In this document: positions 16,408 to 61,710 of the stretch, one piece after another
How the letters are laid out: every line of letters starts with the position of its first letter
Position numbering within the stretch: the first letter of the stretch is position 1
Source: a virus
DNA: 64,000 bases
Strand: one strand, 5' to 3'
Virus record (IMG/VR): IMGVR_UViG_3300037104_000592
Location: 1-64,000 of that record
Program-made: the position numbers and the translations under genes
Notes under the pieces: generated by a model
What the model was told of the DNA's origin: nothing
Database searches by the model: none
The model's input: the letters and a program-made list of their open reading frames with translations, nothing else

Positions 16408-17442
16408 ATGAAAACTTCAAAAAGAGAATATATTAAGAGCTGGTTTTTAAAAAAATATGAAAATAATAAATTAAAACCAAATACTTTTAGAATAATAAAA
16501 GAAAGCTTTCGAAATATATATGATGATATTATATCAGAAACTACATATCTAAATAAAAATTCAAGAATTTCAGAAAGATTGTTTCATATTTTTAATAATA
16601 TTTTTGAAGTTAAAAGATGTTTTTGTGAAAAAAATTTGGGTTATTTAGATATAAACAGAGGGTATGAAAGATGTTGTAAAAAGTGCAGACGTAAGGGGAA
16701 AATCAAACCAAAACTGTTGATTAATAAAAATAATATTTTATGTGATTATGGGTGTGGAAAATTAGCTAATTATATTTTATCAAACAATAAGAATTGTTGT
16801 AAACCAACTTTTGGAAAATGTGAAGCTATAGAACGAAAAATTCCAAGATCTAAAGTCAAGCATAAATATACATATAGTAAATGGATAAATAAATATCCAA
16901 TTTTGAAAGAAAATGAAGAACTTAGAAGTATAAATGAAATGTTAGAAGTTCAATGTAGAGAATGTAAGAACTGGTTTAGTCCAACTGCGGATCAATTATA
17001 TTTTAGAATTAAAGCGCTAGAAGATAAGAAAACTATCTATAAAAATAGAAATGTAAATTCTTATTTATTTTGTTCAAATGAATGCAAAGAAAAATCTTTA
17101 GAATATAGAAGAAGCAATACTATAGAAACTTCTAAAAAATATGAAAGTTATAGAAATATTGTTAATATAAAAACTATAAAAACTATAAGAAAACATAGAG
17201 ATAAAATTCTTAATATTGAGAATTGGAAAAAAGGAAATGCGATAGATCATAAATTTTCAGTTAGAGCTGGATTTGATAATAATATATCTACTGATATTAT
17301 TTCTCACTGGAAAAACCTTGAAGTTATGACATTTTCTATAAATGCAAAAAAACATAAAAAATGCTCAATAACTATTGATAAGTTGATTGAAGAGATTAAA
17401 AAAGATGATAAAAATTTTATATTTGAAGGAAAAACTAAATGA
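16408..17442 (+). CDS. HNH-type homing endonuclease with zinc fingers
   Basis: Inserted exactly between beta' (ends 16407) and beta (overlap of 4 bp). The 344-residue protein has several cysteine clusters: CFCEKN, CCKKCRRKG, the CDYGCGKLANYIL...CC module (about 111-131) also found in other endonucleases here, CRECKNWFSP and CSNEC. The C-terminus carries AIDHKFSVRAGFDNN, NLEVMTF, then NAKKHKKCSIT, an HNH-like DH...N...N..K arrangement. It is clearly paralogous to the protein at 24732 (ALDHKFSVIDGFKNN). Likely a free-standing homing enzyme exploiting the conserved polymerase genes; it is not needed for polymerase function. RBS is weak because it starts directly after the preceding stop. Confidence 0.78.
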   Translation: MKTSKREYIKSWFLKKYENNKLKPNTFRIIKESFRNIYDDIISETTYLNKNSRISERLFHIFNNIFEVKRCFCEKNLGYLDINRGYERCCKKCRRKGKIKPKLLINKNNILCDYGCGKLANYILSNNKNCCKPTFGKCEAIERKIPRSKVKHKYTYSKWINKYPILKENEELRSINEMLEVQCRECKNWFSPTADQLYFRIKALEDKKTIYKNRNVNSYLFCSNECKEKSLEYRRSNTIETSKKYESYRNIVNIKTIKTIRKHRDKILNIENWKKGNAIDHKFSVRAGFDNNISTDIISHWKNLEVMTFSINAKKHKKCSITIDKLIEEIKKDDKNFIFEGKTK

Positions 17443-33681: not shown

Positions 33682-36196
33682 TTTAATCCCAAAACTTTAT
33701 AGGGAATATGGATTATATGTAAATGAGTCTAGAGCATTTCCATTATCACAAGATGGATTAAAACCTGTTGAAAGAAGAATATTATTATCAGCATATCAAG
33801 TTGCAAAAGATAAATTTGTAAAATCTGTAAGAGTTGATGCACATTGTTTGGTTGGAAAAACAAAAATTAAAATAACAAATGGAATAAAAACAATTGAAGA
33901 ATTATATAAAGAAAATTATAGAAATTTCTATATTTTTGGATATGATTTAAAATTAAATAAACCCATTATTACCAAAGCAGATTGTGTTAGTCTGACAAAA
34001 TTTGTTAATAAAATAATAAGAATTACAACGGAGAGTGGTATAATTGAGTGCACAGAAGATCATTTATGGTTAACAAAAGAAGGAGAATATAAAGAAACTA
34101 AAGAATTGATAATAGATGATTCTTTGGAAGTTATGGAATTTGGAATTCCAGATAAAAACAATATATTTAAAAATAATTGGGTTGGCTGTTATCCATATGA
34201 AGTTGTTGAAAACAATGGAAATTTTTATAAAAGTCATTTTTTAGCAGATGAATATAATTGTAAAAATAATTTAGAAATATTATTTGAATTAATTGATGGT
34301 TTTGATAGACATCATAAAGATAAAAATATATTAAATAATGACCCAGATAATATAACAAGAATGATTGTAGGAGATCATTTAAAATTACATTATAATTTTT
34401 GGTTTAATTATAAAAATGGAAAAATATTTTTATCTGAAAACGGAAAAAGAATTCAAAGAGAACATCCAGAAATAGCTAAAGCTCTTGTAGAATTTACTAA
34501 ACAAAAAAGTATAGATGATCCCACATGGCTGAGCAATAATGGAAAAAAATGTTGGAATAATCTTAACGAAGAAGATCGTAAAAAACTTTCAAGAAAAATA
34601 GGAGATGGAATAAGAAAGTTTTATAGAGAAAATGGATCAGAAGAAAAAAGTAAAAAAACAATTGAGTACTGGAAACAAGATTCAGAGTTAGTTAAAATTC
34701 ATAGAGAAAAAAACAGATCAGCTGGGGTAATAACATCAAAAAAGAATTTTGAAAATAACCATAAAATTAAAATATTAAAAACTCTAAAAAAAATTATTGA
34801 TAAAAATTTAGATCTGAATGAAGAAACATATAACTCTAATAGAGAAAAACTTTATCCACTGTATAATAAAATTTTGAAATATTTTAATTCATATGAAGAA
34901 GCAAATGAAGAAGCAAAAAAATATACAAATCATACTATACTAAATATAGAAGAAATTAATTTAGAAACTCCAATTCCAGTGTATGACATAATAAACTCAG
35001 AAAATTACCACAATTTTGTTGTTATGTTTGATGATAATACTGGAGTAATTTCCCATAATTGCTTGGGGCATTTTCATCCTCATTCTACCGTATATCAATC
35101 AATTGTTCAATTAGTTCATCAAGGATTTTTAGATGGTCAAGGAAATTTTGGAAACAATATTGGACTAGAACCGAGTCCAGCGGCTGCTATGCGGTATACT
35201 GAATGTAAACTTTCTAAATTTATTAATAATATAGCTTTTAGATTAATTGATTATGTTCCTTGGGGTGAGTCAGAGTTAGATGATGAACCAGAATATATTC
35301 CATCAATGTTTCCTTTGTGTCTTTTAGGAAAAGAATATACGGTTGGAATTGGATTTGGATATAAAACTTTAATTCCTTGTTATACTCCTGAAGATCTTAA
35401 AAGTAGATTGTTTTATTTATTAGGAAAAACAAAAGAAAAACCTATAATTAAACCAATCACAGATTGTAAGATTTTATCAACTGATAAGGATTTTGAAGAA
35501 TTATTAACAACTGGAAAAGCTGTTATTTCATTTCAAGGAATTCATAAAATTGATAATGTTAAAAGTAAAGCTGTAATAAAAAATTGGCCACCTGGAAAAC
35601 GATTTGAATCTATTTTATCAAAGTTTGATAAAGAATTAACAAATCAAGATATTGGATTTATTGATGAATCATCAAAAGACAATGGTGGAACTCATATAGT
35701 TTTTGAAGTTTTAAAATCTAGAAATAAGAATGATATTTTTAGAACATTTTCTAAAAAGTTAGGGGATGTTTTAAAAGGTTCTATTTCTTTTGAAATGATT
35801 GTAGTTGATTCTGAATCAAGAACTCCAAAATTGATGTCCGTTGATGAGATGTTGCTTAAAACTTATAATATGTATAAAGCAACAAATGAGATAATGTTAA
35901 AGTCTGAAGAAAAAAGATTTAAAGATTTAATAAATGAAAATAAATTGATTCAAAAGATAAAACCATCTTTGTCTAAACAATTACAATCAAAAGAAACTGA
36001 TGTTGATAAAATAATTGATGCAATAAGTGCAGATACATTTATTGATAGAAATGTGGTTAAAGATATTATTCAAAAACATAGAATTTCTAAGTTGTTATCT
36101 GTTAAAAATGATTTGAAAGAACTAGAAATAAGAATAGTAGATATAGTTGATTGTATAAAGAATATAGATAAGTTTGTTTTGAAACAATATACTTAA
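33674..36196 (+). CDS. Type II DNA topoisomerase, subunit A, intein-containing precursor
   Basis: The 840-residue precursor consists of a GyrA/ParC-like protein interrupted by an intein at residues 58-462. The exteins read LIPKLYREYGLYVNESRAFP, DGLKPVERRILLSAYQ, RVDAH before the intein and CLGHFHPHSTVYQSIV after it, where bacteria have IGKYHPHGDxAVYD. The active-site tyrosine is in AAMRYTE (Tyr 508 in the precursor, 103 after splicing). The spliced protein would be about 435 residues, like T4 gp52, and lacks the beta-propeller C-terminal domain of gyrase A, so it should relax or decatenate rather than supercoil DNA. The coiled-coil end (670-840) is intact. Confidence 0.93.
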   Translation: MDNLIPKLYREYGLYVNESRAFPLSQDGLKPVERRILLSAYQVAKDKFVKSVRVDAHCLVGKTKIKITNGIKTIEELYKENYRNFYIFGYDLKLNKPIITKADCVSLTKFVNKIIRITTESGIIECTEDHLWLTKEGEYKETKELIIDDSLEVMEFGIPDKNNIFKNNWVGCYPYEVVENNGNFYKSHFLADEYNCKNNLEILFELIDGFDRHHKDKNILNNDPDNITRMIVGDHLKLHYNFWFNYKNGKIFLSENGKRIQREHPEIAKALVEFTKQKSIDDPTWLSNNGKKCWNNLNEEDRKKLSRKIGDGIRKFYRENGSEEKSKKTIEYWKQDSELVKIHREKNRSAGVITSKKNFENNHKIKILKTLKKIIDKNLDLNEETYNSNREKLYPLYNKILKYFNSYEEANEEAKKYTNHTILNIEEINLETPIPVYDIINSENYHNFVVMFDDNTGVISHNCLGHFHPHSTVYQSIVQLVHQGFLDGQGNFGNNIGLEPSPAAAMRYTECKLSKFINNIAFRLIDYVPWGESELDDEPEYIPSMFPLCLLGKEYTVGIGFGYKTLIPCYTPEDLKSRLFYLLGKTKEKPIIKPITDCKILSTDKDFEELLTTGKAVISFQGIHKIDNVKSKAVIKNWPPGKRFESILSKFDKELTNQDIGFIDESSKDNGGTHIVFEVLKSRNKNDIFRTFSKKLGDVLKGSISFEMIVVDSESRTPKLMSVDEMLLKTYNMYKATNEIMLKSEEKRFKDLINENKLIQKIKPSLSKQLQSKETDVDKIIDAISADTFIDRNVVKDIIQKHRISKLLSVKNDLKELEIRIVDIVDCIKNIDKFVLKQYT
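33845..35059 (+). mobile_element. Intein with HNH homing endonuclease in topoisomerase A
   Basis: The inserted 405 residues begin with Cys (CLVGKTKI, block A) and end VISHN followed by Cys +1, the standard class 1 splice junctions. Block B is ESGIIECTEDHLWLT with the TxxH pattern, and block F is VYDIINSENYHNFVV. The middle contains DRHHKDKNILNNDPDNI...GDHLKLH, an HNH endonuclease core, so it is probably a mobile full-length intein. The insertion interrupts the highly conserved HPHS/HPHG segment beside the DNA gate, a typical intein site. Confidence 0.93.
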
Positions 36197-45904: not shown

Positions 45905-46243
45905 ATGGGATATGTAAGAAGATCAGAAAGAATTAAACATTTGAAACAGTATAAAGATATTAGATTAATTTTTAAGAATTTATTTGATACTCCAAATTTT
46001 ACAGATAATATTGTATATGGCGCAAGCTTTAAATGGTATTTTAATTCATTTTTAAGAAACAAATGGGGAAATGAAAAAAAAATAAAAGATAATGTTAAAA
46101 ATTTTCTAGAAAATAATTTGCGAGGTATAGGGTTTATTTTTGAAGTTAAATTATTACCTCATCCTTGGGCATCAAGATCAGGAATGTCTCCTAGTTTTAG
46201 AATTTTGACGAGGTTATATAATGGACCAAATTCAAATAGTTAG
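45905..46243 (+). CDS. Unknown basic protein, 112 aa
   Basis: Starts 4 bp after the preceding stop. It is rich in Lys, Arg, Phe and Asn, with a helical N-terminus (GYVRRSERIKHLKQYKDIRL) and a Phe/Trp-containing core; it may bind nucleic acid, but no motif is recognised. Overlaps the radical SAM gene by 23 bp. Confidence 0.55.
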   Translation: MGYVRRSERIKHLKQYKDIRLIFKNLFDTPNFTDNIVYGASFKWYFNSFLRNKWGNEKKIKDNVKNFLENNLRGIGFIFEVKLLPHPWASRSGMSPSFRILTRLYNGPNSNS

Positions 46244-47246
46244 TTGGCTTCTTACACGAAGATGTAATCTTAGATGTTCATATTGTAGAATATCTAGAGA
46301 TTATAAAGCACCTCCAGAATATAATTCAATGAAATATTTTCATCAATTAGAAATGAAAACGGAAGATATTTTAGAAACATTAAGAAGATTAAAGCTTCAT
46401 AATCCTAATGTTTTCCATATCTTTTACGGAGGAGAACCAACCCTTAGAACAGACTTATCAGAAATAATAGGATATTGTCATAAGGAATATATTAATTATA
46501 CCATCATTTCAAATATGACTGATAGACCCAAAGAAGTAATTGATAACTTAATTAAAGAACACGGATTCCTTCAAGGATTAACAGCGAGTATAGACCCTAT
46601 TATCATGGAAGAATATTCAAATGAGGATAGATGGAGAAAAACTTGGGGAGGATATAGCTTAAGAAAATATAGAGGAAAAGTAAAGGATTTAGTTGCTGAG
46701 ATAACTGTAAGTAATGATAATCTAAAGAATTTATATTCATTAGTTAGAAAATTAACAGATGATGGAATAAATTCTGATATTACTTTTGTTGATATAGCTA
46801 AATCTCCATATTATGATTTCTCTAATGTTACAGATGATGATTTATTAGTTTATAAATCAGCCGAATTAAGAGATATTATAAATAGAATAATTGGTGAAAA
46901 ATTAGATGTTCATATGAGAGATATTCTTTTACCTGCTATTTATGATATTCTTCCTTCTGAATTAGATTGTAAGATTGAAGATGATGTTCATAATATAACA
47001 ATTGATGCAGATGGAAGTATTCGATTATGTTTAAGAATTTGCGGAATTATAACTCCTGGATCTTTTAGGACTTCAAACTTTTTAGATGAAAATGGAAAAA
47101 TTCATGAAAGTTTAAAAGATGTATTAGGTCAAGATAAAAAAAGACTATGTCAAAAATGTAATTGGACCTGCCAGATTATGAGTTCTTTATTATCAAAAAA
47201 TGATGGAAATATTGAAAGTCTTCTTCATTCTGAAAGGAGATTATAA
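46221..47246 (+). CDS. Radical SAM protein
   Basis: A 341-residue protein with a canonical cluster CNLRCSYC at about residues 15-22 (WLLTRRCNLRCSYCRIS), a GGEPTLR glycine-rich motif and TIISNMT, then a C-terminal CKIEDDVHNITIDADGSIRLCLRICG, followed by LCQKCNWTC, which could hold an additional SPASM-like iron-sulfur cluster. This is the architecture of peptide/protein-modifying enzymes such as anSMEs or PqqE-like proteins. QueE is unlikely because QueE has a longer cluster loop. Substrate unknown; no precursor peptide recognised. Confidence 0.83.
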   Translation: MDQIQIVSWLLTRRCNLRCSYCRISRDYKAPPEYNSMKYFHQLEMKTEDILETLRRLKLHNPNVFHIFYGGEPTLRTDLSEIIGYCHKEYINYTIISNMTDRPKEVIDNLIKEHGFLQGLTASIDPIIMEEYSNEDRWRKTWGGYSLRKYRGKVKDLVAEITVSNDNLKNLYSLVRKLTDDGINSDITFVDIAKSPYYDFSNVTDDDLLVYKSAELRDIINRIIGEKLDVHMRDILLPAIYDILPSELDCKIEDDVHNITIDADGSIRLCLRICGIITPGSFRTSNFLDENGKIHESLKDVLGQDKKRLCQKCNWTCQIMSSLLSKNDGNIESLLHSERRL

Positions 47247-47993: not shown

Positions 47994-48368
47994 ATGACAA
48001 TGTTAGAAGAAATTCTAGAAAAAACAAAAACTTTACCCACTGATGATCAATTAAAACAAATTTGTGATCAAATACAAAAAGAAGAAGAAGAAAAATTTAG
48101 AGATTATTTAGGAGAGATGCCAAAAGGACCCAATATGTTTCTAGCAATTTGGGTTCCTGGAATTACAGGAAAAGAATTATGTTATGTATGTTTAGAAAGA
48201 GAATTTCCTGGTAAATATTTAGTAACTCTTTGGTCTAAATTATCCGAAAAAAGTATAATAAAAAAGAAATCATTAATAAGAACAAAAGTTTGGGAAGTTA
48301 AAGAAAGCGCTCCAAAAAAGATTTTAGAAGAATATGCTAAAATACTTAAGTTCATGAGAGGAAAATAA
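47994..48368 (+). CDS. Unknown protein, 124 aa, coupled to E2-like gene
   Basis: Ends exactly at the first base of the E2-like gene (TAATG), so translation is probably coupled. Charged helix at the N-terminus (residues 1-40) followed by MFLAIWVPGITGKELCYVCLE and a basic strand-rich end. Two cysteines (CYVC). It may be a cofactor or substrate of the downstream conjugation genes; nothing in the sequence proves this. Confidence 0.58.
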   Translation: MTMLEEILEKTKTLPTDDQLKQICDQIQKEEEEKFRDYLGEMPKGPNMFLAIWVPGITGKELCYVCLEREFPGKYLVTLWSKLSEKSIIKKKSLIRTKVWEVKESAPKKILEEYAKILKFMRGK

Positions 48369-50992
48369 TGGCCGAGCAAATATCACCTATATTTATTGAT
48401 GAAAATACAATTAAAGAAATATTTATAAATAGAGATTATACAAGACTCATAAGATCTTCTTATGATTCTAAAGCTAGAGATGTAAAATTGGATGAAACTA
48501 AACCAAAACTTGTAACATCTAAGATGAGAACAATAGATTTTTTTAATAAATTAAATAGTACAGATAGTAAACTAACAATTCTTCCTAGAAATTGTAGATT
48601 TACTAATAAAATAACTGATAGAACAATATACGTAATTGAAGATCCTCCTATGTTAAGAACAGTTAAATTTAATATAGGATTAGAATCTGAAATTGAAAAT
48701 TTAAGGAATAATGGTTTACTTACAAAGTTTGGATATGAAAATTTTCTAAATGATAATCCAAGTCCACCTTATAAAATACAACTTTCATTCCCGTATGTTA
48801 TTTATATTATAACTTTTGGGCAACATAATGAATTTTCAAATATGAAGTTATTTTATAGATTGCATCCTTTAACTGGAATAAAAGATTATTTACTCACAAG
48901 TAATTTATTGAATGTAGATTCTAACGGTTCTGTATGTTTAGGTCCACAAAATTCAAAAGATGTTACAGAAGTAAGTGATAAAGTAGATAATATTATAAAT
49001 TCTTTTTGGGGAAATGAGTTTAATAATGATATTACACATTCATATTTATCATATTCTAATCAAAGAGAAATTTCTACAATTCTAGCGTGGAAATATTATT
49101 CGAAAGTTGATCCAATGTTTATATTTGATGTGGAGTGGATAAAAAATACATATAATTTAGACTCATTTTTAAATTTTAAAAATTCTGGTGATGATATAAG
49201 AAGTTGTGAAAATATAATGTATAAACTTGAAGAGTATATTTTATATGATAAAGAAGATGAAGGACAAAAAGTTGTTGATAGAAGATATACTTATACCAGT
49301 CTTCCATTATTTGAAGATGAACAAAAGGGTTCTGACTATCTTGTAATTGGAGATGAAATTATATTTGAAGGGAAAAAATATTTTATATATGAAATAGTTC
49401 ATGAATCAGATGGAAAAATTATTGTTTCATTGGAAGACGAGAATGGAAAGTTAATTTATAAAAAATATAATACAGATTTTAGAGACAAAATAAGAAAAGA
49501 AACTTTGAAAAATAAAGAGCTTACAGAAATTAAAATTGATGGTCTTACTGTAAAAAAAGGAACCGTTTTAGAAGCATTTGATGGTTATAAAAAGAGATTA
49601 AAACATGTACAAAAAATAAGAAAGACCAGAGATGGAAAAATAGAAATACAATGTGAAAAAAGTTTCTACATGATTGAAGATGGGAGTTTAGCTGGAGTAA
49701 AAGTTTTTGATATTAATAATTTAACTATTTCTAATGGTTTAAAAATTGTTAATGGAAATAAGTACATGATTTTTAATAATATAACTAATCCTATATTTGA
49801 TATTCAAACTGGAATTTTTACAGATTTAAAAGTAACTAACGACACTGTCTACTATAATTTTAAATATGTCAGACCTGCTGATAAAAAAGAATCTACAATT
49901 AATTATAGTGGAGATACTCAAACAACTGAAGTTTTTGATTATGATGAAAAACTTTTAAATAATTCCATGTTTCCTTTCTTTAGACTTGGAAAAATGATCA
50001 TATCAAATATTGATAAAGATTATAAATTTCATATAATTAAAGGAAAAGGTATTGGGGTTACATCTTCTTCGGGTAATGTAATTGATAGATATGATTTTGG
50101 GAGATATTTAAATTCTGATAAAGATATAAAGGAGAAAATTTTAAAAGATAATAAATTAAGAATTCCATCATTTGATTTGGATATAGAATTTGATATTGGT
50201 GATAGAGTAGTTATAGCTGATTATTCTAAATCTTTAAAATATATTACTACAATAAGAACTATAACTGGATTTAAAATTGCAGGGGATAATCTTTTTGTAG
50301 ATACTGTAGATGAAAATAATATACCAGAAAGTACTCCTTATATAAATTTTAAAATTTATGATAAAAGTTATATTTATTCAAAATCTCCTAAAGTTAATAT
50401 TGGGTTAATTAGAAAAATAATAGATAATGATTTATTCAAAAGAGGAACTAAAGTAAGACCTAAGGTAAAAGGAATTTCATCATTTAAGAAAAAAGATGTT
50501 CATGAAATAGTTGGACTAATTACAGATACTGGGTCTAAACCTATTATTCTATGTTCAAATGGTCATACAATTTGGTGTGATGAAAAATCACTTGAAAATT
50601 TTGAACTTATAGATAAGAAATCTAAATTATATAATAAATCAAAATTAACAGAAATATTAGAAAATGAAAAAATATATTGTAAATTTCAATCTGGAGATTT
50701 AGCTGATATTAAAGATGTATATGATAGAACTTCATATGAAGATTCAATTCATCTTTGCGGTATAGGAGCAAATAATAGAATAATATTTAAAATTTTAAAT
50801 TCTTTAAATGTATATGGTTCATATAATAGATCTGGAAGAAGAATTATAAGTCAACAATATCAAACTATTCCTATGCCAAGATATTTACCAACAACTGAAT
50901 TAATAAGAGGGATTGGAGTTATTCCTAATTATCATGGTTGGTTTACTATTTCAAATAATTCGCTGTTTAAAATACAATTGGAGAAAATATAA
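48368..50992 (+). CDS. E2-like (PRTRC protein B-like) ubiquitin-conjugating fold with long barrel-rich extension
   Basis: An 874-residue protein. Residues about 85-230 resemble the E2-like PRTRC-B family: IYVIEDPPMLRTVKF, strands YVIYIITFGQ and KLFYRLHP (His166-Pro167), NLLNVDSNGSVCLGP with the candidate catalytic Cys190, and SFWGNEFNNDITHSYLSY, corresponding to the FF.S.FTH segment. Canonical E2s also have an HPN...G.xCL block. Beyond residue 300 are at least three SH3/Tudor-like stretches (DYLVIGDEIIFEGKKYFIYE, FDIGDRVVIADYS and FKRGTKVRPKVKG), not part of known PRTRC-B proteins, which probably bind the target or nucleic acid. First gene of a four-gene Ub-like cassette; TAATG coupling to the JAMM gene. 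Confidence 0.7.
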   Translation: MAEQISPIFIDENTIKEIFINRDYTRLIRSSYDSKARDVKLDETKPKLVTSKMRTIDFFNKLNSTDSKLTILPRNCRFTNKITDRTIYVIEDPPMLRTVKFNIGLESEIENLRNNGLLTKFGYENFLNDNPSPPYKIQLSFPYVIYIITFGQHNEFSNMKLFYRLHPLTGIKDYLLTSNLLNVDSNGSVCLGPQNSKDVTEVSDKVDNIINSFWGNEFNNDITHSYLSYSNQREISTILAWKYYSKVDPMFIFDVEWIKNTYNLDSFLNFKNSGDDIRSCENIMYKLEEYILYDKEDEGQKVVDRRYTYTSLPLFEDEQKGSDYLVIGDEIIFEGKKYFIYEIVHESDGKIIVSLEDENGKLIYKKYNTDFRDKIRKETLKNKELTEIKIDGLTVKKGTVLEAFDGYKKRLKHVQKIRKTRDGKIEIQCEKSFYMIEDGSLAGVKVFDINNLTISNGLKIVNGNKYMIFNNITNPIFDIQTGIFTDLKVTNDTVYYNFKYVRPADKKESTINYSGDTQTTEVFDYDEKLLNNSMFPFFRLGKMIISNIDKDYKFHIIKGKGIGVTSSSGNVIDRYDFGRYLNSDKDIKEKILKDNKLRIPSFDLDIEFDIGDRVVIADYSKSLKYITTIRTITGFKIAGDNLFVDTVDENNIPESTPYINFKIYDKSYIYSKSPKVNIGLIRKIIDNDLFKRGTKVRPKVKGISSFKKKDVHEIVGLITDTGSKPIILCSNGHTIWCDEKSLENFELIDKKSKLYNKSKLTEILENEKIYCKFQSGDLADIKDVYDRTSYEDSIHLCGIGANNRIIFKILNSLNVYGSYNRSGRRIISQQYQTIPMPRYLPTTELIRGIGVIPNYHGWFTISNNSLFKIQLEKI

Positions 50993-52020
50993 TGTTTAAA
51001 ATAGTTTGTTTAGATGGAACACAAAAAATACCAGAAGATGATATTTGTTATATTATAGCTAAGGGTGGGGTATATCTTAAGAAAAAAGTTGGAATGATTG
51101 AATCTTTAGCTCCAGTAAAGAATATTTCAATTTTAGAAGATGTTCAACCATATGCTAAAATGAATATTCCAAAAATCTCTGGTGAAGATTTTGGAAAAGT
51201 TATGAGTTTTTTCAAAAAAGTTTATGAAGAACATAAATCTGAAGCAATAGTTCTTTTATATTATAATCCAAAAAAAGCAACTTATAAATTTTATGTTCCA
51301 CATCAAAAAGTAAGTGGTGCTGGAGTTGATTATGTAAAAGGAGTTTCTATAGCAAATCATATTCAAGTAGGAACTATTCATAGTCATGCTAATTTTTCAG
51401 CATTTCATTCTGGAACAGATGATAGTGATGAAGAACATTTTGATGGAATTCATATAACAATTGGTGATAACACCGATGCTTTTCCATCTATCACTGCATC
51501 AATTGTTATAAATGGAACCAGATTTACAATAAATCCTATTGATTATGTAACAAAAATGGAAATTGTAGAATATACTAATTATTTTCCTCATATGTTCAGA
51601 CCATCTTTCACAGAAATAAATGGAGTCAGAGAATATAAATCTAATGTAAAAACTCAACTTGGATATCAGCTAATGATTTCAGACCAAGATAAAAAATTTA
51701 ATGAAGCATGGTTAAAAATGATTGAGAATGTTAGACCTACTATAACTAATATCCCATTTTATACACAAGAACACTATTTGGATTTATTTGATCCTAATAG
51801 AAAAGATAAGCAAGACAGATCTTATAGATACACATGGACTCCAGGTTCTACTAAAAAGAATAATCGTCCTGCTTATAATCCTTGTGAAAGTTGTGTTTTT
51901 AAAAAATATAAATCAGACGATGAAAGAAAATCAATAACACAAGAGGACATACAACAAAGTTTCTCTGATATTTGGGATGATTATAATGTGTATGATGATC
52001 CTTGGGGAAATTTAATATGA
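50992..52020 (+). CDS. JAMM/JAB metallopeptidase (deubiquitinase-like, PRTRC protein A-like)
   Basis: The JAMM motif is complete: Glu84 (SEAIVLLYY), then H130-x-H132-x7-S140-x2-D143 in GTIHSHANFSAFHSGTDDSD. The strand KFYVPHQKVSGAGVDYV before it resembles PRTRC-A/JAB proteins. This zinc peptidase family cleaves isopeptide or C-terminal extensions of ubiquitin-like proteins. A C-terminal region of about 140 residues contains CESCVFKKYK (about 300), a possible extra metal site. It lies between the E2-like and E1-like genes with 1-bp and 4-bp overlaps. Likely substrate: the beta-grasp protein at 52731, whose tail continues three residues beyond a GG. Confidence 0.88.
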   Translation: MFKIVCLDGTQKIPEDDICYIIAKGGVYLKKKVGMIESLAPVKNISILEDVQPYAKMNIPKISGEDFGKVMSFFKKVYEEHKSEAIVLLYYNPKKATYKFYVPHQKVSGAGVDYVKGVSIANHIQVGTIHSHANFSAFHSGTDDSDEEHFDGIHITIGDNTDAFPSITASIVINGTRFTINPIDYVTKMEIVEYTNYFPHMFRPSFTEINGVREYKSNVKTQLGYQLMISDQDKKFNEAWLKMIENVRPTITNIPFYTQEHYLDLFDPNRKDKQDRSYRYTWTPGSTKKNNRPAYNPCESCVFKKYKSDDERKSITQEDIQQSFSDIWDDYNVYDDPWGNLI

Positions 52021-52721
52021 GATTTAATGATATTTCTATAGTGGGTTTGGGTGGAATAGGCTCAATTTTAAGTAATACTATTTCAAGATTTATAAGTAAC
52101 GATGCTAGAGAAAATGATCCAAGACAAATTATAAATTTAATTGATGGAGATTATTATGAAGAAAAAAACTTAGTTAGACAAGAATTTTTAAGATTTGGAA
52201 ATAAAGCAGAATCTAAATTAAATGAATTAAGACCAAAATTTAATAATATTGAATTTAAAGATTATCCATATTTTATAGATGATATAACTATTTCTAGAAT
52301 AATTAAAGATAAAGATTTAGTATTTTTAGCAGTTGATAATCATAAAACAAGAAAATTAGTAAGTGATTATGCAAAAAAACTAAATGATATAATTATAATT
52401 TCAGGAGGAAATGAGCTAGAAGATGGTAATGTTCAATTGTATATTAGAAAAGATGGAGAAGATGTTACTCCATCTTTAACTGATTATCATCCAGAAATCA
52501 GAAACCCAATTGATAAATTACCAAATGAAATGAGCTGCGAAGAGTTACAAAACTCTGAACCACAACTATATTTTACAAATTTAGGAGTGGCAACTTTTAT
52601 GGCTTTTGCATTTTACAATGTCCTAAAAGGCTCAAATAATTTTTCAGAAGTATATTTTGATATGAACACAATGAAAGCTGATTCAAAAACAAGAAACTTA
52701 AAAAAAGAAAAAGGAGAGTAA
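52017..52721 (+). CDS. ThiF/E1-like adenylyltransferase, first module
   Basis: I chose ATG 52017, which overlaps the JAMM stop (ATGA). The 234-residue protein has the E1 Rossmann loop GLGGIG (residues 10-15), IDGDYYEEKNLVRQ (the D...E..NL.RQ block with the arginine and glutamine that contact ATP) and LAVDNHKTR (103-112). Cys174 in NEMSCEELQ is at the position of the ThiF/MoeB catalytic cysteine region. No rhodanese domain and no CxxC zinc pairs are present. It should adenylate the C-terminal glycine of the Ubl encoded next and may pass it to the E2-like protein. It resembles the ThiF of PRTRC cassettes. Confidence 0.88.
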   Translation: MRFNDISIVGLGGIGSILSNTISRFISNDARENDPRQIINLIDGDYYEEKNLVRQEFLRFGNKAESKLNELRPKFNNIEFKDYPYFIDDITISRIIKDKDLVFLAVDNHKTRKLVSDYAKKLNDIIIISGGNELEDGNVQLYIRKDGEDVTPSLTDYHPEIRNPIDKLPNEMSCEELQNSEPQLYFTNLGVATFMAFAFYNVLKGSNNFSEVYFDMNTMKADSKTRNLKKEKGE

Positions 52722-52730
52722 GGATTTATT

Positions 52731-53204
52731 ATGGCTAAAAAAGTATATTCGGCAGAGGAACTTTATAACAAAACAGTATCAGAACTTCGTGAAATGTGTG
52801 TTAAGTTTGGGATTACGGGTATGAGTAAAAGGAGAAAAGATGAGATTGTAGATGCTCTTTGTGATTATTATGAAGATACAGCACCTGAACCCCAAGTTAA
52901 AACACCAGTTTCTTCTTCATCTATCGTTTCTATGAATGCTCAACTTTCGAGTTATAGAAACCCCGATTCAAAAAATGATGACGATAAATACATCACCAAT
53001 ATTTTTGTGTCTTGCGGCGCAGCTTCTGGAAACTTCCCAGTTGTTGGAAAGAAAGTTGGAGCAGTTGCTGAATTCCTAAGAGAAGTTCTTAATATCGACC
53101 GTTTAAGTGTTGGAGTTGTGAATGGTGAAGAAGTTGAAGATAGTTATCTTCTTGCATCTGGAGATTCTCTTGAATTTCTAAAAGCAGGTGGTCGTAAAGG
53201 TTAA
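52731..53204 (+). CDS. SAP domain fused to ubiquitin-like/ThiS beta-grasp domain
   Basis: Residues about 11-47 (LYNKTVSELREMCVKFGITG, then KRRKDEIVDALCDYY) form a SAP-type nucleic-acid-binding helix pair. A Ser/Pro/Asp-rich linker (50-85) leads to a ThiS/MoaD-like beta-grasp domain (about 88-157): NIFVSCGAASG, a helix AVAEFLREVLN, and VNGEEVEDSYLLASGDSLEFLKAGG, the classic ending of sulfur-carrier/Ubl proteins, followed by RKG. If the JAMM peptidase removes RKG, a GG terminus would be exposed; alternatively the final Gly is itself activated, since PRTRC-C proteins also end in G-x-K-G. Codon use here is less AT-biased than that of neighbours, suggesting high expression. Confidence 0.8.
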   Translation: MAKKVYSAEELYNKTVSELREMCVKFGITGMSKRRKDEIVDALCDYYEDTAPEPQVKTPVSSSSIVSMNAQLSSYRNPDSKNDDDKYITNIFVSCGAASGNFPVVGKKVGAVAEFLREVLNIDRLSVGVVNGEEVEDSYLLASGDSLEFLKAGGRKG

Positions 53205-53249: not shown

Positions 53250-53768
53250 ATGAAAGAAACACTAGATAAGCTTACAGATGAAGGTGTAAAGCAACTAAAA
53301 TATTATTATAAGAAAACAAGGCTCTTTGGAAATATTTGCACTGTTTGTTTACTTATTGGAGAAAATAATGAACTTATTTCAAGAGGAGTTTCTATTTGTT
53401 CATTATTAGATTCTCATAAAAAATCAACAGGAAAAAATATTGCTTTAGGAAGAGCAATAAAAGCTCTAAAAAATAAGAAAACAACAGATGAAATAAATCC
53501 AAATAGAGATTCTTTAACACATTGGATGTATACTAAAAATATAAATAAAAAAGATCCTTATTTTAGCGATATGTTTGAAGAAATTAAATATAATTGCTTT
53601 TCTACAAAACCTTTAAAAATTAATAAAGAAGAAGTTTTAAAAGTTGAAATACCAATGGATTTTCCATTGTATGCAACTGTATCATTATTTACACATAAAT
53701 CTTCATTTAAACCAACTCCTACGGATGAAGAAGTTAAAATAATTGAAAAAAGAAAAAAGTTAGATTAA
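53250..53768 (+). CDS. Unknown protein with RGVSICS...ALGRAIKAL motif, 172 aa
   Basis: Preceded by AATCGGAGTTACTT. The segment ICTVCLLIGENNELISRGVS, then a lysine-rich G..IALGRAIKALKN, is a pattern I associate with hypothetical proteins of large phages, in which an RGxSxCSxxD...K..G...A..RA..AL block recurs. No catalytic role is known to me. Located between the Ubl gene and the structured RNA. Confidence 0.62.
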   Translation: MKETLDKLTDEGVKQLKYYYKKTRLFGNICTVCLLIGENNELISRGVSICSLLDSHKKSTGKNIALGRAIKALKNKKTTDEINPNRDSLTHWMYTKNINKKDPYFSDMFEEIKYNCFSTKPLKINKEEVLKVEIPMDFPLYATVSLFTHKSSFKPTPTDEEVKIIEKRKKLD

Positions 53769-53783
53769 ATTTTTAGAAAAATT

Positions 53784-53940
53784 GGGGTGGATAATCATAC
53801 TGAATAAGTGGTTTTGAAACCTGGTACTAAGAAAGAGTGCGAACTCTGGGGCAGGAACCCAGATAGAAGCTTTAGATGGCTCGATAGCTGACTGATAGAT
53901 ATTGCACCCAAAGTGCCTTATCCAGTATTATTCCACCCCA
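53784..53940 (+). ncRNA. Predicted structured RNA, about 157 nt
   Basis: The ends of this gene-free interval pair to close a long stem: GGGGTGGA (53784-53791) with TCCACCCC (53932-53939), TAAT with ATTA, and ACTG with CAGT, with bulged CAT and T. Inside are clear hairpins: GGTT-TTGA-AACC (53810-53822), AGAGT-GCGA-ACTCT with a GNRA loop (53834-53847), CTGGG...CCCAG (53846-53862, sharing one base with the previous stem), AGC...GCT around 53868-53889 and GCAC-CCAAA-GTGC (53904-53916). No T-loop GTTCRANNC, so it is not a tRNA. The closed multi-branch form recalls Y-RNA-like or packaging RNAs, but I cannot assign a family. The strand is inferred from neighbouring genes. Confidence 0.7.
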
Positions 53941-53957
53941 ATTTTAGGAGATTAAAA

Positions 53958-55134: not shown

Positions 55135-55476
55135 ATGAGCATAAAAACTATTACTATTGAGAAAAAAATAACACCAAGAATTGCTATTTATAAACGAGAT
55201 GCCTTTGATATTTTAGAGGTTGATCCAGAATTCATGATAAATAAATATGAGATAACTTTAAAAGAATCAAAAGTAGTTTCTTTAAAATTATTTGCTTTAC
55301 ATCCAAATTGTAATCCAGATACTGGAGAATTTTGTTTAGGTCCTGACATAATTGAAAATCAAGCAAATGAATATCTTTTAGAAAAAGTTATTCCTTATAC
55401 ACTATCAGTATATAATTTAGATAGTTGTTATTTCAGGCCAAAAAATGGAAAAGTAAAATATGGAATAATGAAATGA
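55135..55476 (+). CDS. Minimal E2-like protein, 113 aa
   Basis: The ATG at 55135 is 2 bp after the E1-like stop. Residues about 40-75 read ITLKESKVVSLKLFALHPNC, then NPDTGEFCLGPDI. This HPN...G.xCLG block is the hallmark of the E2/UBC active site, with a cysteine 11 residues after the histidine (10 in typical eukaryotic E2s). Flanking strands and a C-terminal helix (IIENQANEYLLEKVIPYTLSVY) fit a trimmed UBC fold. At 113 residues it is shorter than canonical E2s (about 150). It resembles the N-terminal block of the protein at 48368, so it is probably a second conjugating or adaptor subunit paired with 54257. Confidence 0.68.
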   Translation: MSIKTITIEKKITPRIAIYKRDAFDILEVDPEFMINKYEITLKESKVVSLKLFALHPNCNPDTGEFCLGPDIIENQANEYLLEKVIPYTLSVYNLDSCYFRPKNGKVKYGIMK

Positions 55477-55926: not shown

Positions 55927-58623
55927 ATGCCAAATATATTAAACATAGATAAGTTTTGTGAAAACTTAAAAGGAATTTCTTCTTTAAAAGCTATTGATAA
56001 AAGAAAATTCCATCCAAATGGATTATTCTCAGAGCAGATATTTGGTCCTTTAAAAAATTATACATGTCAATGTGGAATATATCATGGAGTATCCAATGCA
56101 GGTGGAACTTGCGAAATATGTGGAGTTGATATTGTTCATAGTATTGAGAGAAGAAGAAGATTTGGAAAAATTGTTCTACCTTTGAAAGTTGTTAATCCAA
56201 TTTTTTATGATTTGGTTATAAAATTGGGTGGAAATATATTAAAAAAGAATATAGATGAGTTAATGAAAAATGAAAAAAGTTATTTATATAAAGATGAAAA
56301 TGATTATATTGTAGAAACTAAGTTACCCCATCCTACTAATACTCAAATATGGGATAGATCTGAAGCAATTTTTGAATTAGTAAATGGACTTGCTACAGAG
56401 TTGGGAAATAATGAAAGTGGAATGGGAATTAAAGAATGGGAATTAATAAAAAATAATATTGATTGTTTATTTATTAAAAATGTTATAGTGTTACCACCTG
56501 ATTTAAGACCTGCTGCAAAAGGAATGGATAAGAACGATCAACGAATGGATAAGATAAATAGATTTTATGTTCAAATTCTTACAAAAAAAGAAAGTATGAG
56601 AAATACTCCTATAAATATAGAAACTGATAAAAGCGTATATTACAATTTTTTCAAGCAATTACAGAGAGATGTTAATGAATTATATGAACATATTATTTCA
56701 AAAATATCCAAGAAAGAAGGTTTAATAAGAGGAAATATTTTAGGGAAGAGAATAGATTTCTCAGGTAGAGCTGTTATTGTTCCAGAACCTTCTTTGAAAT
56801 TAGATGAATGTAGTCTTCCATATTTAATGGTTTTAGAATTATTTAAAATTCAATTATCTAAAAAACTTATAGATTTAAAACAGTTTAAATTATTAAATGA
56901 AGCAATTGATTTTGTTGATAGGTGTATAGAATTATCAGATCCTATTTTATTTAATATTTGTCAAGACATAGTTAAAAATGAAGTTTGTTTACTTAATAGA
57001 CAACCAACTTTACATAGATTAGGAATGATTGGATTTAAGATAAAAACTTCTTTAGATAAAGTTATAAAGATACACCCCCTAGTTTGTCCAGGATTTAATT
57101 CGGATTTTGATGGAGATCAAATGGCAGTATATATTCCGATTTCTGATAGGACAAAAGCAGAAGTTAGAGAAAAATTTATGTCAACTAAAAATTTATCTAA
57201 TCCTTCAAATGGAAGTTTAATTACTATTCCAAGTCAGGATATGGTTTTAGGAATTTATATGTTGACTACATCATCATTTGGAGAAGTTGAATATAAAGGT
57301 GAAAAAATAACAATTGGATCCAAAATATTCAATGAATGTTTACCAAGTGATTATCCATTAATAAATGGTTCAATAAATAATAAGATCTTAAAAGAAACAT
57401 TAAATGATATTAAAAATAAATATCCAGATGAAATAGTAACTGAAGTATTAGATAAAATAAAAGAAGTTGGTTTTAGATTTTCAACAATATATGGAACCTC
57501 AATGTCTTTGAAGCATATTTCAATTGATGGAATTGATAAAATTAAAAATGATATTTATTCATTGGATAATATTCAAGATCAATTATCTGCAATCTCTAGT
57601 AAAAAAACTGAAGATATAATGAGGAAAAACTTTAAATATTCTTATCTTATAGATTCAGGTGCAAGAGGAAAATGGGATCAGGTAAGACAAATAATTTTAA
57701 CAAGAGGATATATTTCTAATTTTCAAGGAGATATTCTCCCAACCCCAATAAAGCATAATTTAATAGAAGGTTTAGATCAACAAGAGTTTTTTAATTCAAC
57801 ATACGGTTGTAGAAAAGGATTATTAGATGTTGCATTAAATACAGGTGATTCTGGATATTTATCTAGAAAATTAATTTTCACTTGTGTTAACTTAATAATT
57901 GGGGAAGAAGATGATTGTGGAACAACAGATTATCTTGATATATTAGTTACTAGTGAAAAGAAAGCAAAAATGTTAATTGGAAGATATTATTTAAATGATG
58001 GAAATTTATCTGAAATAACAGTTGAAAATCATAAAGGATTTGTTGGAAAATTAATTCAACTTAGAAGTCCTATTTTCTGTAAAAATGAAGAACTATGTCA
58101 TAAATGTTATGGAAACTTATATAAAAATTTACATAGTAAGTTTGTAGGAATTATAGCTGCTCAAGCATGTGGAGAAGCTGGAGTTCAGCTAATTTTGAGA
58201 ACATTCCATACAAGTGGTGTAGCAAAGATTTCGGAAGATCAAACAGATATGAGACAGTCAGATATCGTAAGTGATTTATCTTCTGTATCAAAAGTTCTTC
58301 ATAATAAAGATAAAAAGGAATATAAAGAATTAGTTTCTAATTTATTTGACTTATATATTATAAATAGAGATATTCACCATATTCATTTTGAATGTATAAT
58401 TTCTCAAATGATGTGGAAAGGTTTTAGAAAATGGAGACTTCTACCAAATAGAGATAAAATTTCTTCAGACTATTATTCAATTCAAACAGTTCCTGAAAAA
58501 GAAAGTTGGATTGTAGGATTAGCTTTCTCAAATCCAAAAAACCATATTTTAAAAGGAATTGTTCAAGATGGAAATTATAAAGGAATTTTTGATAAAATAA
58601 TGCTAGGAGAAATACCTAGATAA
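55927..58623 (+). CDS. RNA polymerase beta' subunit, second set
   Basis: An 898-residue single-chain beta'. Unlike the first beta' it keeps an N-terminal zinc site, CQCG (47-50) and CEICG (62-66). The catalytic loop is NSDFDGDQM at 391-399: all three aspartates are present, but Ala of NADFDGDQM is Ser. ILGKRIDFSGRAVIVPEP and LNRQPTLHRLGM precede it, as in RpoC. The C-terminus has CKNEELCHKCYGNLY and GIIAAQACGEAGVQLILRTFHTSG, corresponding to the trigger-loop side. About 65% of bacterial beta' length. It differs enough from the first set that they are ancient paralogues or separate acquisitions. Confidence 0.95.
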   Translation: MPNILNIDKFCENLKGISSLKAIDKRKFHPNGLFSEQIFGPLKNYTCQCGIYHGVSNAGGTCEICGVDIVHSIERRRRFGKIVLPLKVVNPIFYDLVIKLGGNILKKNIDELMKNEKSYLYKDENDYIVETKLPHPTNTQIWDRSEAIFELVNGLATELGNNESGMGIKEWELIKNNIDCLFIKNVIVLPPDLRPAAKGMDKNDQRMDKINRFYVQILTKKESMRNTPINIETDKSVYYNFFKQLQRDVNELYEHIISKISKKEGLIRGNILGKRIDFSGRAVIVPEPSLKLDECSLPYLMVLELFKIQLSKKLIDLKQFKLLNEAIDFVDRCIELSDPILFNICQDIVKNEVCLLNRQPTLHRLGMIGFKIKTSLDKVIKIHPLVCPGFNSDFDGDQMAVYIPISDRTKAEVREKFMSTKNLSNPSNGSLITIPSQDMVLGIYMLTTSSFGEVEYKGEKITIGSKIFNECLPSDYPLINGSINNKILKETLNDIKNKYPDEIVTEVLDKIKEVGFRFSTIYGTSMSLKHISIDGIDKIKNDIYSLDNIQDQLSAISSKKTEDIMRKNFKYSYLIDSGARGKWDQVRQIILTRGYISNFQGDILPTPIKHNLIEGLDQQEFFNSTYGCRKGLLDVALNTGDSGYLSRKLIFTCVNLIIGEEDDCGTTDYLDILVTSEKKAKMLIGRYYLNDGNLSEITVENHKGFVGKLIQLRSPIFCKNEELCHKCYGNLYKNLHSKFVGIIAAQACGEAGVQLILRTFHTSGVAKISEDQTDMRQSDIVSDLSSVSKVLHNKDKKEYKELVSNLFDLYIINRDIHHIHFECIISQMMWKGFRKWRLLPNRDKISSDYYSIQTVPEKESWIVGLAFSNPKNHILKGIVQDGNYKGIFDKIMLGEIPR

Positions 58624-58653
58624 AAAATTTTAACACCTCAGGAGGTGAAATTA

Positions 58654-61600
58654 GTGGATATAATAAATCCAAACTATAAAATAAATGAAGAAAACAATAT
58701 ATTTTCAATAAGAGAAAAAGAATATAACTTAATAAAAGATAATGTAAGAGAAATTTTAAAAGCAGCAGAAGAAGTTGGTTTTTTAGTTAATGAACTTGGA
58801 ATAACGGAATCTAAATTCTCATCTGGAGAATTACAGAAAACATTAAAGAAAAATTTAGTTATAAAATTAAGACGAGGATCTTCTGACATAGACTTATCTA
58901 TGGCTATTCCAAAATTAATTGATAAAAATTATGTTATAATTGGAGGAAGGAAAAAAGTTCCTTTATTTCAATTATTTGATATTCCTGTAGTTACAAGAGG
59001 AAAAACTATAAAAATCAGAACCAATGTAGCAAGTATGATGATAGTAGATGAAAAAGAATTTCCATTTATTCATCTATCAATTTTTAATAAAAAAGTTCCA
59101 TTGTCCTTAGTCATATTTGCTTACTATGGTTTAGAAGAAACAAAAAATAAATTTAGTTTAGATAAAATAGAAATTCCTGAAATAAAAACTTTACATGATA
59201 AATTAATGACAGATTTAAAAGATTTTTATGAAGGATCAGAAGGGTTTACAAAAGAAGAATTTATCAAAGAAGTTGGTAAATTCTTCTCAACAAATGATGC
59301 AAAAAATAAAGGTGAAGATTTAATTTATGCTCTAGATCTTATTTTAAAGACCGATATAATGTCAGCTAAATTTTTCAAAACTGGAAACATTTTAGATGAA
59401 ATTGTTGAGGTTATTAAATTAGGTGGTTATGATGATACTGATTTAAGAAATAAAAGAGTAAGGTGTTTTGAATATGTAATTTTAGCTAAAGTATCTAAAG
59501 CAATATTTGATCTATGTATGTCAAATAGATCAACCACAAGACAAGCTAAATTTAATGTAAATTCCAGTCAAATTTTATCAGATTGTAATGTTTCAGATAT
59601 TGTTCAATTTGATTTTTCAATAAATCCAATTGAACAATTAACAAAATTAACAAGAACAAGTTTGGTTGGTCCTGGTGGGTTTGACAGAGAAAATGTTCCA
59701 GAATATCTAAGAGATATTAATCCATCAATGTTTGGAAGAATTTGTCCTGTTGATACTCCTGATAGAGATAACTGTGGAATATTACAAAGTTTATTACCAA
59801 ATACACCATTAGATGAAAATTTAAAATTTACAGATGAATCATTAGAAAAATCACCTATTTCTATTCCAGTTTCTTTAGTTCCATTTTTAGAACATGATGA
59901 TCAAACTAGATTACAAATGGCATCATCACAAATGAGACAGTCTATTATGTTATCAGAGTTTGAAGTTCCTATGGTTCAATCGGGATGTGAAGGGTTATAT
60001 ACAGATCATAGTAGCTTTATAAAAAAGGCTAGAAAAAATGGAAAAGTATCTTATGTAGATCAGTTTAATATAATTATTGTTTATGATGATAATGATTATG
60101 ATATTTTTGATGTATCAAATAGAAGAATATATGTTGAAAATATGGATGTTATGAACATATATGTTTCTAAAGGAGATAAAGTTAAAAAAGGAACGATTAT
60201 TGCTGAAAGTAATTATTGTAAAGATGGAAAAATAAATTTTGGAAGAAATTTATTAACAGCTGTTATGCCATATTATGGATATAATTATGAGGATGCAATT
60301 GTTATTTCTGATAGATTAGTAAAAGAAAATATTTTTACATCTATTCATTATATTGATTTATCATTTGTATTACCAGCAGATAAAATTTTACTTAGTTTAG
60401 AAAAAGATAAATATAAACCCCTTCCAACTCCAAAACCATATATAGATTTGGAAGAAGGAATTACAGAAGAAGAAAAAAGAAAAAGAAAAAGAGAATTAGT
60501 TTTAAAGGGTCAACATTATGCTATAATTAAACAAATTCCATCTACTACTTTGGATTACAATTCTATTTTCGAGGAAGAGATACCTTTAACTGCTAAAAGA
60601 GATATTTTAGTAACTGAAGTAAATATTTATCCTAATAAATGGAATGACTCAATTCCAAAATTTAATGAATGGATAGATAAAAAATCTAAAGAACAAATAG
60701 ATCAAGAGAATAAATTTAAGAGAATTATTTATGAAAATCTACCAAAAAGAAATGCTGATCAATATATAAGAGATCATAATCTAGATAGATTTTCTCATAT
60801 TGGAAAGTTTAAAATTAAAGGTGAAGAAATAAAAGGAACTTTAATTGAGATGTTTGGTTTTTATGTTAGACCAATTACTATTGGAGATAAGATTGGAAAC
60901 AGACATGGAAATAAAGGTGTAATTTCAAAAATAGTTCCACATAATCTTATGCCTAAATTAGAAGATGGAAGAAATGTTGATATATGTATAAATCCTTTAG
61001 GTGTTCCTTCGAGAATGAATGTTGGTCAAATATTTGAGTTACATTCTGCAATGTCTTTATATGATTTAAAAAAGACTATGTTAAAAATGATAAAAGAAGG
61101 AAAATCCAAAGACGAATTGAAAACATATATTTTAAATTATATTAAAATCATTGATAATACAGAAAATAATTGGTATTATAAACAGTTTGAAAAAAATATA
61201 AAAACTATAAATAAAAAGTTTATAGAAGATCTTACTATTCTTGCTCCACCATTTGAATCATCAACTAGAAAAATGATATTAGATGCTTGTGAATATACAA
61301 ATACCAAAACTGAATTTAAAGTATACGAACCATATGAAAAAATTGATATTCATGATATAGCTTGTGGGTTTATATATTTCTTTAGAATGGTTCACATAGC
61401 TGAAAATAGATTAGCAGCTAGAGGGATTGGTTCATATGGAAGAAGAACAATGCAACCAGGTGGTGGTCGTAAACACAAAGGAGGACAACGTTGTGGAGAG
61501 ATGGAAATCGCAGCAATCATTGCTCATGGTGGACTTGAAAATCTATATGAAACTTTAACAACCAAGTCAGATTGTATAGATCTTAAAAATAAACATATTA

Positions 61601-61710
61601 AGCAAGAAATAGGATCAGATTTCTTTAGAGAAAAAGAAGGAGATATTATAAAACCTGAAGCAGTTCAGCTTTTAGAGAATTATCTAACTGTTTTGGGTAT
61701 AGAAAAATAA
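58654..61710 (+). CDS. RNA polymerase beta subunit, second set
   Basis: I use GTG 58654, 7 bp after GGAGGT; the in-frame GTG at 58645 overlaps that site. The 1018-residue beta chain shows CPVDTPDRDNCGILQSL (fork region, with the usual TPEGPN replaced by TPDRDN), AVMPYYGYNYEDAIVISDR, GDKIGNRHGNKGVIS, INPLGVPSRMNVGQIFELH and RRTMQPGGGRKHKGGQRCGEME. All catalytic basic residues appear present. It is 25% shorter than the first beta, mainly at the N-terminus. Together with 55927 it forms the second polymerase; one of the two may be packaged in the virion, as in phiKZ-like phages, but which one cannot be told from sequence. Confidence 0.95.
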   Translation: MDIINPNYKINEENNIFSIREKEYNLIKDNVREILKAAEEVGFLVNELGITESKFSSGELQKTLKKNLVIKLRRGSSDIDLSMAIPKLIDKNYVIIGGRKKVPLFQLFDIPVVTRGKTIKIRTNVASMMIVDEKEFPFIHLSIFNKKVPLSLVIFAYYGLEETKNKFSLDKIEIPEIKTLHDKLMTDLKDFYEGSEGFTKEEFIKEVGKFFSTNDAKNKGEDLIYALDLILKTDIMSAKFFKTGNILDEIVEVIKLGGYDDTDLRNKRVRCFEYVILAKVSKAIFDLCMSNRSTTRQAKFNVNSSQILSDCNVSDIVQFDFSINPIEQLTKLTRTSLVGPGGFDRENVPEYLRDINPSMFGRICPVDTPDRDNCGILQSLLPNTPLDENLKFTDESLEKSPISIPVSLVPFLEHDDQTRLQMASSQMRQSIMLSEFEVPMVQSGCEGLYTDHSSFIKKARKNGKVSYVDQFNIIIVYDDNDYDIFDVSNRRIYVENMDVMNIYVSKGDKVKKGTIIAESNYCKDGKINFGRNLLTAVMPYYGYNYEDAIVISDRLVKENIFTSIHYIDLSFVLPADKILLSLEKDKYKPLPTPKPYIDLEEGITEEEKRKRKRELVLKGQHYAIIKQIPSTTLDYNSIFEEEIPLTAKRDILVTEVNIYPNKWNDSIPKFNEWIDKKSKEQIDQENKFKRIIYENLPKRNADQYIRDHNLDRFSHIGKFKIKGEEIKGTLIEMFGFYVRPITIGDKIGNRHGNKGVISKIVPHNLMPKLEDGRNVDICINPLGVPSRMNVGQIFELHSAMSLYDLKKTMLKMIKEGKSKDELKTYILNYIKIIDNTENNWYYKQFEKNIKTINKKFIEDLTILAPPFESSTRKMILDACEYTNTKTEFKVYEPYEKIDIHDIACGFIYFFRMVHIAENRLAARGIGSYGRRTMQPGGGRKHKGGQRCGEMEIAAIIAHGGLENLYETLTTKSDCIDLKNKHIKQEIGSDFFREKEGDIIKPEAVQLLENYLTVLGIEK

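Follow-up and report, generated by a model that had tools for sequence, protein, structure and literature searches.

The row 6d operons of Iyer et al. (2006) bring together a ubiquitin-like (Ub-like) protein, a JAB peptidase, an E1-like enzyme and an E2-like protein (PMC1779556). In type II CBASS, which relies on Cap2 and Cap3, a bacterial E1/E2 conjugation is reversed by a JAB peptidase, and a C-terminus with a single Gly or Ala suffices (PMC10097602). The eukaryotic protein SDE2 carries an N-terminal ubiquitin-like domain (Ubl) that is cleaved at a diglycine, with a DNA-binding SAP domain in the remainder (PMC5131917).

Here, we analyse a 64,000-nucleotide stretch (the window) of an 82 kb virus contig, IMG/VR record IMGVR_UViG_3300037104_000592. 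We propose, with a probability of roughly 75%, that it encodes a phage ubiquitin-like conjugation system in which the modifier, named RhoN-Ubl, would be activated at Gly157 and conjugated together with its own Rho_N domain. Neither a RhoN-Ubl fusion nor an RNA polymerase-linked phage Ubl system was described in the open-access papers searched, which is not proof of absence.

The two-domain putative modifier and its operon

The modifier gene sits in a tightly packed operon (Table 1). Its open reading frame (ORF) starts with ATG, is preceded by a purine-rich ribosome-binding region, and closes with TAA after ...EFLKAGGRKG. The E2D, JAMM and E1a genes overlap stop-to-start, and the RhoN-Ubl ORF begins 9 bases after E1a. 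An earlier sequence-only reading of this DNA had placed a JAMM peptidase next to the modifier; it is indeed there, and a ThiF-type E1 adjoins as well. In the protein, a linker joins a helical N-terminal domain to a C-terminal domain of predicted beta-grasp type, an architecture common to 64 distinct proteins, the window's included, and thus far beyond chance.

Table 1. Features of the RhoN-Ubl cassette, in window coordinates
Feature	Positions	Strand	Basis
RhoN-Ubl, two-domain ubiquitin-like modifier, 157 aa	52731..53204	+	domains, homologues, model
Rho_N domain, residues 6-53	52746..52889	+	Pfam PF07498, homologues, model match to Rho
Putative ubiquitin-like beta-grasp domain, residues 89-157	52995..53201	+	weak ThiS/TGS matches; PRTRC_C-type profile match
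Conserved C-terminus G-R-K-G, residues 154-157; Gly157 the putative activated residue	53190..53201	+	homologues, tandems
E1a, ThiF-type activating enzyme, 234 aa, putative catalytic Cys174	52017..52721	+	Pfam ThiF, PRTRC_ThiF
JAMM peptidase, 342 aa, E84, H130xH132, S140, D143	50992..52020	+	Prok-JAB, PRTRC_A, motif residues
E2D, large E2-like protein, 874 aa, putative catalytic Cys190	48368..50992	+	profile match to PRTRC_B-type E2
E1b, second ThiF-type protein, C-terminal extension ending TGAA	54257..55132	+	
E2s, small protein, invariant HPN...C	55135..55476	+	E2-like by motif only
172-aa putative protein, in part of loci	53250..53768	+	locus comparison
Second RNA polymerase beta' subunit	55927..58623	+	
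Second RNA polymerase beta subunit	58645..61710	+	
Radical SAM protein, upstream edge of conserved cassette	46221..47246	+	

The N-terminal domain is a Rho_N domain, by Pfam and by structure. Rho_N (PF07498) matches residues 10–43 with an E of 6.7e-7 and 29.6 bits, above its cut-off of 24.9, and is found in 20 of 26 homologues; SAP (PF02037) reaches an E of 0.038 and 14.1 bits, below its cut-off of 23.9, and is found in five. An AlphaFold model built from the 26 family sequences (pLDDT 80) has three helices in this domain, and its residues 6–53 align with residues 1–48 of E. coli Rho (2a8v_A; VIA-align Z 8.9, rmsd 1.5, 48 aligned residues), the best match among solved structures. All VIA-align rows at Z >= 8, save one, are Rho. 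The PHROGs matches of the modifier are likewise of Rho_N type only, such as the endonuclease VII C-terminus. In two loci (L014 and L145) two Rho_N domains precede a single Ubl. The net charge over residues 1–50 is −1, near neutral, and so gives no clear sign of nucleic-acid binding.

The SAP identity that the sequence-only reading had given to about residues 11–47 was rejected on these Pfam scores and on the structural match to Rho. Its broader idea, a modifier fused to a helical domain of nucleic-acid-binding type, is supported by the Rho_N assignment: Rho_N and SAP share the same broad type of fold, which made the idea sound although the name was wrong.

For the C-terminal half, weak ThiS matches occur in 12 of the 26 homologues and weak TGS matches in 18, and both families are of beta-grasp type. 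The profile built on 17 Ubl domains matches the PRTRC_C-type Ubls of plasmids and phages (probability 92%, E 5.8e-7), with the alignment ending at the same KG; the NCBIfam model for PRTRC protein C (TIGR03738) gave no match for P0001 or P0002, the two families being related by profile comparison only. Structure prediction, which bore out the three Rho-like helices at the N-terminus, was less decisive here. This half of the model is of moderate confidence, below the N-terminal half, and its top solved matches lie outside the ubiquitin family, so that support for the beta-grasp fold comes mainly from family context. Foldseek found no match below E 0.001 for the whole RhoN-Ubl model, and searching PDB sequences with the Ubl profile gave no significant match.

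Other features of the contig are recorded in their own right. Two complete and different multisubunit RNA polymerase beta'/beta pairs are present, at 13375–21533 and 55927–61710. The intergenic stretch 53778–53948 is predicted to fold strongly as RNA into a closed structure of hairpin type (MFE −57.8, z −4.8); it matches no Rfam family, none of its 19-mers recurs exactly in other viral contigs, and the relatives checked have no room for a corresponding stretch. A Topoisomerase subunit A ORF at 33674–36196 contains an in-frame interruption resembling an intein (start ...DAHCLVGKTKI, end ...VISHNCLGHFHPH).

Relatives and the putative conjugation enzymes

Scanning with the E1 pair recovered 31 virus contigs, in all but one of which an intact RhoN-Ubl stands right after the E1; together with the window's protein, they give 26 distinct RhoN-Ubls. 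In the exception (L029), the Rho_N frame continues into E1b and the Ubl is truncated, either an assembly error or a fusion. Wider scans with 18 E1s reached MAG contigs and more virus contigs and brought the distinct RhoN-Ubls to 64. As bait, the E1 alignment proved the productive choice; when viral contigs were scanned with the alignments of the Ubl or JAMM pair, nothing beyond the contig already known came up. Among 50,697 named phage records, tblastn found no match to the modifier and, for the E1 only, distant matches; libraries of anti-phage defence systems gave generic E1 matches only. The MAG contigs L045–L122 carry core sets of E2D, JAMM, E1 and a plain Ubl, and come from MAGs of Methylomirabilota, Chloroflexota, Lentisphaerota and candidate phyla.

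A recurring gene order emerges: radical SAM, two small genes, E2D, JAMM, E1a, RhoN-Ubl, E1b, E2s, RpoC and RpoB. This order is kept in all 31 loci of the first scan and recurs in virus contigs with small losses and cuts at contig ends. RNA polymerase genes adjoin the RhoN set in every one of the 31 first-scan loci and in 41 of the 42 found later, that is, in 72 of 73 contigs, some of which are near-duplicates; plain-Ubl loci with RNA polymerase number 0 of 61. The RhoN loci form one group in the E1a tree (67 rows, SH-aLRT 93), so the Rho_N fusion and the polymerase linkage mark one lineage, and one evolutionary event rather than many. The linkage itself may stem from common descent within one virus lineage and not from function.

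E1a matches Pfam ThiF at 7.6e-18, with PRTRC_ThiF (7.7e-10) among its best specific matches. On the PRTRC ThiF model (TIGR03736) it scores 38.5 bits against a cut-off of 144.75, homologous and below the cut-off. Among solved structures it is most like ThiF/MoeB. Cys174 is kept in 42 of 42 RhoN loci and 89 of 90 other loci, and the ATP-site residues in every one of the 42 RhoN loci counted and in almost all of the rest. The JAMM peptidase matches Prok-JAB (Pfam, E 4e-4) and PRTRC_A (2.3e-8, range 2e-8 to 2e-9); its 33.9 bits on PRTRC protein A (TIGR03735), with a cut-off of 101.8, again mark a homologue below the cut-off. Its glutamate, both histidines, serine and aspartate are kept in 41–42 of 42 RhoN loci. 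A PDB sequence search with the JAMM pair found no match. Behind the JAMM domain, a CxxC at residues 298–301 of the protein occurs in about 34 of 42 RhoN loci and not in plain-Ubl relatives.

For E2D, a direct Pfam scan places Prok-E2_D at residues 175–232 below the cut-off (E 0.014), and among seven E2D proteins so scanned, two gave below-cut-off matches and five none. The E2D family profile matches PRTRC_B-type E2 proteins at a probability of 97% (E 3e-10) over a span that includes the cysteine, and Cys190 is kept in 39 of 40 RhoN loci and 65 of 66 other loci. On the strength of this profile comparison, E2D is probably E2-like. The locus accordingly holds a dedicated E1, a JAMM peptidase and a putative E2 (assigned by profile only) with intact catalytic residues. 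Conserved cysteines on both the E1 and the E2-like protein point to thioester transfer, not adenylation alone, and with the JAMM peptidase they form the make-up expected of conjugation over sulfur transfer.

Downstream, the C-terminal 75 residues of E1b are predicted to form a strand-strand-helix-strand-strand arrangement and end in TG(A/G/S)A in most homologues; E2s, small and with an invariant HPN and Cys, follows. The two may represent a second E1 with a built-in Ubl and its own E2. Comparisons of E2s with the E2D and PRTRC_B-type profiles, and of the E1b C-terminus with the Ubl profile, were not significant, so the second E1/E2 pair and the possible built-in Ubl remain leads only.

The GxKG C-terminus and tandem precursors

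All 64 RhoN-Ubls share the chain end [A/S/G/T]-[G/S]-x-K-G, with K-G invariant, and thus a C-terminal glycine that stands either at the chain end or before a putatively removable tail. The chain stops at the KG glycine in 41; the other 23 have a tail, which is one extra Cys in 15 and different in 8. The same GxKG motif is present in 58 of 60 plain Ubls of related systems, 20 without and 38 with a tail.

In tandem proteins, the joints fall at the same place. In locus L155 (7710–8669), a single ORF of 319 aa encodes two diverged RhoN-Ubl units head-to-tail, with the joint GRKG|ADET and a final GRKG; because this tandem repeats both domains, the RhoN-Ubl pair is the unit. The cultured Bacillus phage vB_BauM_KLEB27-3 (OM634661) encodes a 235-aa protein of four Ubl repeats, above the PRTRC_C cut-off, with joints AGVKG|M, and a Cytobacillus plasmid encodes two Ubl units joined at AGTKG|L. 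The KLEB27-3 gene (L003, 1739–2446) is annotated as hypothetical and has PRTRC_A, PRTRC_ThiF and PRTRC_B-like proteins as neighbours. Read from sequence, such joints are independent statements by evolution of where a Ubl unit ends. Conserved end and joints together indicate that Gly157 is probably the functional end of the window's modifier, already exposed and needing no trimming, and the residue at which activation would occur.

The weak likeness of the beta-grasp half to ThiS, the resemblance of E1a to ThiF/MoeB and the radical SAM gene of the cassette, a possible partner, would also suit a sulfur or cofactor-type carrier (ThiS/MoaD/Urm1-like) that E1a adenylates and thiocarboxylates and that tags no protein. 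We consider this unlikely: the modifier is accompanied throughout by a JAMM peptidase and by an E2-like protein whose Cys is conserved, the tandem precursors and Cys tails require a processing peptidase, the chain ends in KG and not in the diglycine of ThiS/MoaD carriers, and neither Pfam nor PHROGs recognised a rhodanese or sulfurtransferase in the operon.

Lipid-conjugated proteins of the Atg8 type also end in a single glycine, and a Rho_N domain could hold the modifier on RNA or DNA. That RhoN-Ubl is attached to a non-lysine partner such as a lipid or nucleic acid, or serves uncleaved as a non-covalent adaptor bound to nucleic acid, nevertheless seems quite improbable to us, since no specific feature speaks for attachment to a lipid or a nucleic acid and a non-covalent adaptor has no need of a full E1/E2/JAMM set with conserved catalytic residues. 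The sequence-only reading was right about the terminal letters and the adjacent JAMM gene, but the proubiquitin-like precursor that it drew from them, with a mature GG end and an RKG tail removed by JAMM, can be set aside as extremely improbable: GG occurs in 3 of the 64 and is absent in 61, so that no conserved diglycine precedes a tail, RKG lies within the C-terminus conserved as xKG in all 64, in this phage no residue follows it that could be cleaved, and the tandem joints fall at GRKG and AGVKG.

Proposed pathway and comparison with known systems

In the conjugation pathway that we favour, the phage operon would both produce RhoN-Ubl and put it to use. E1a would adenylate the C-terminal Gly157 and take the modifier as a thioester on Cys174; the modifier would pass to Cys190 of E2D and then be attached, through an amino group, to target proteins, from which the JAMM peptidase would remove it. 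In relatives, the JAMM peptidase would first trim the short tail, often a single Cys, or split tandems after GxKG; the window's enzyme would act on conjugates, and those of relatives presumably on precursors too. The Rho_N domain would stay on the modifier, so that a target would gain a domain of nucleic-acid-binding type. Activation, conjugation, nucleic-acid binding and targets are all predictions; the domains, the conserved catalytic residues, the operon, the conserved C-terminus, the tandem precursor and the polymerase linkage are what the sequences themselves show.

The set is strictly linked to a phage RNA polymerase, which suggests that it acts in transcription. The pathway might tag phage or host transcription machinery with Rho_N, reversibly recruiting a polymerase or factor to nascent RNA or DNA during infection; we regard this as a tentative and rather doubtful proposal, a guess at the target drawn from that linkage.

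If the conjugation pathway is true, a complete set of E1, E2-like protein, JAMM and modifier outside anti-phage defence would stand as a clear example of virus-run ubiquitin-type modification; if the transcription proposal is true as well, viral transcription would be under ubiquitin-type control. A concrete, testable guess at purpose comes from the fusion to Rho_N and from the near-perfect association with a viral RNA polymerase. The GxKG rule, common to PRTRC-type plasmid and MAG systems, singles out the residue to examine in a family first described from sequence, and the fourfold Ubl of KLEB27-3 is a tractable model for GxKG processing.

RhoN-Ubl shares with the transcription terminator Rho a Rho_N domain that matches it structurally over 48 residues; unlike Rho, it has no OB-fold RNA-binding domain and no ATPase, Rho_N being a module only. 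SDE2 resembles it in domain layout, with a Ubl and a SAP domain (a fold like Rho_N) on one polypeptide. The domain order of SDE2 is reversed, and its Ubl is cleaved off the DNA-binding part instead of carrying SAP onto targets (PMC5131917); the earlier statement that no Ubl with an N-terminal SAP domain had been described thus needs SDE2 as a caveat. A phage Ubl of tail-morphogenesis loci likewise has a C-terminal glycine and an adjoining JAB peptidase, but no E1, E2 or Rho_N. In CBASS, the cGAS-like enzyme itself is the tag, E1 and E2 are fused, and the system serves anti-phage defence, whereas the RhoN system is the phage's own and has a separate E1 and E2 and a true Ubl as putative tag; among the genes scanned, no CBASS nucleotidyltransferase was recognised, nor the combination of a CD-NTase and a fused E1-E2 (Cap2) that defines type II CBASS.

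KLEB27-3 has a phage-encoded set of Ubl, E1, JAMM and E2-like protein with units ending in GxKG; it differs in having four tandem Ubl units without Rho_N, no neighbouring RNA polymerase and an E1 on a distant branch. The PRTRC plasmid system (A, B, C and ThiF), of the Iyer 6d type, encodes together, as the phage does, a Ubl ending in GxKG, a JAMM peptidase, a ThiF-type E1 and a family-D E2-like protein, with E1a and JAMM matching PRTRC models and E2D and the Ubl matching by profile comparison. Unlike PRTRC, the phage fuses its Ubl to Rho_N, and has an E2 protein of 874 aa against about 250; its set is adjoined by a second E1 and by a phage RNA polymerase, and PRTRC proteins D, E and F were not seen among the neighbouring genes scanned. 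Because the PRTRC cut-offs are missed, we file the set not as PRTRC but as a variant of the PRTRC/Iyer 6d type.
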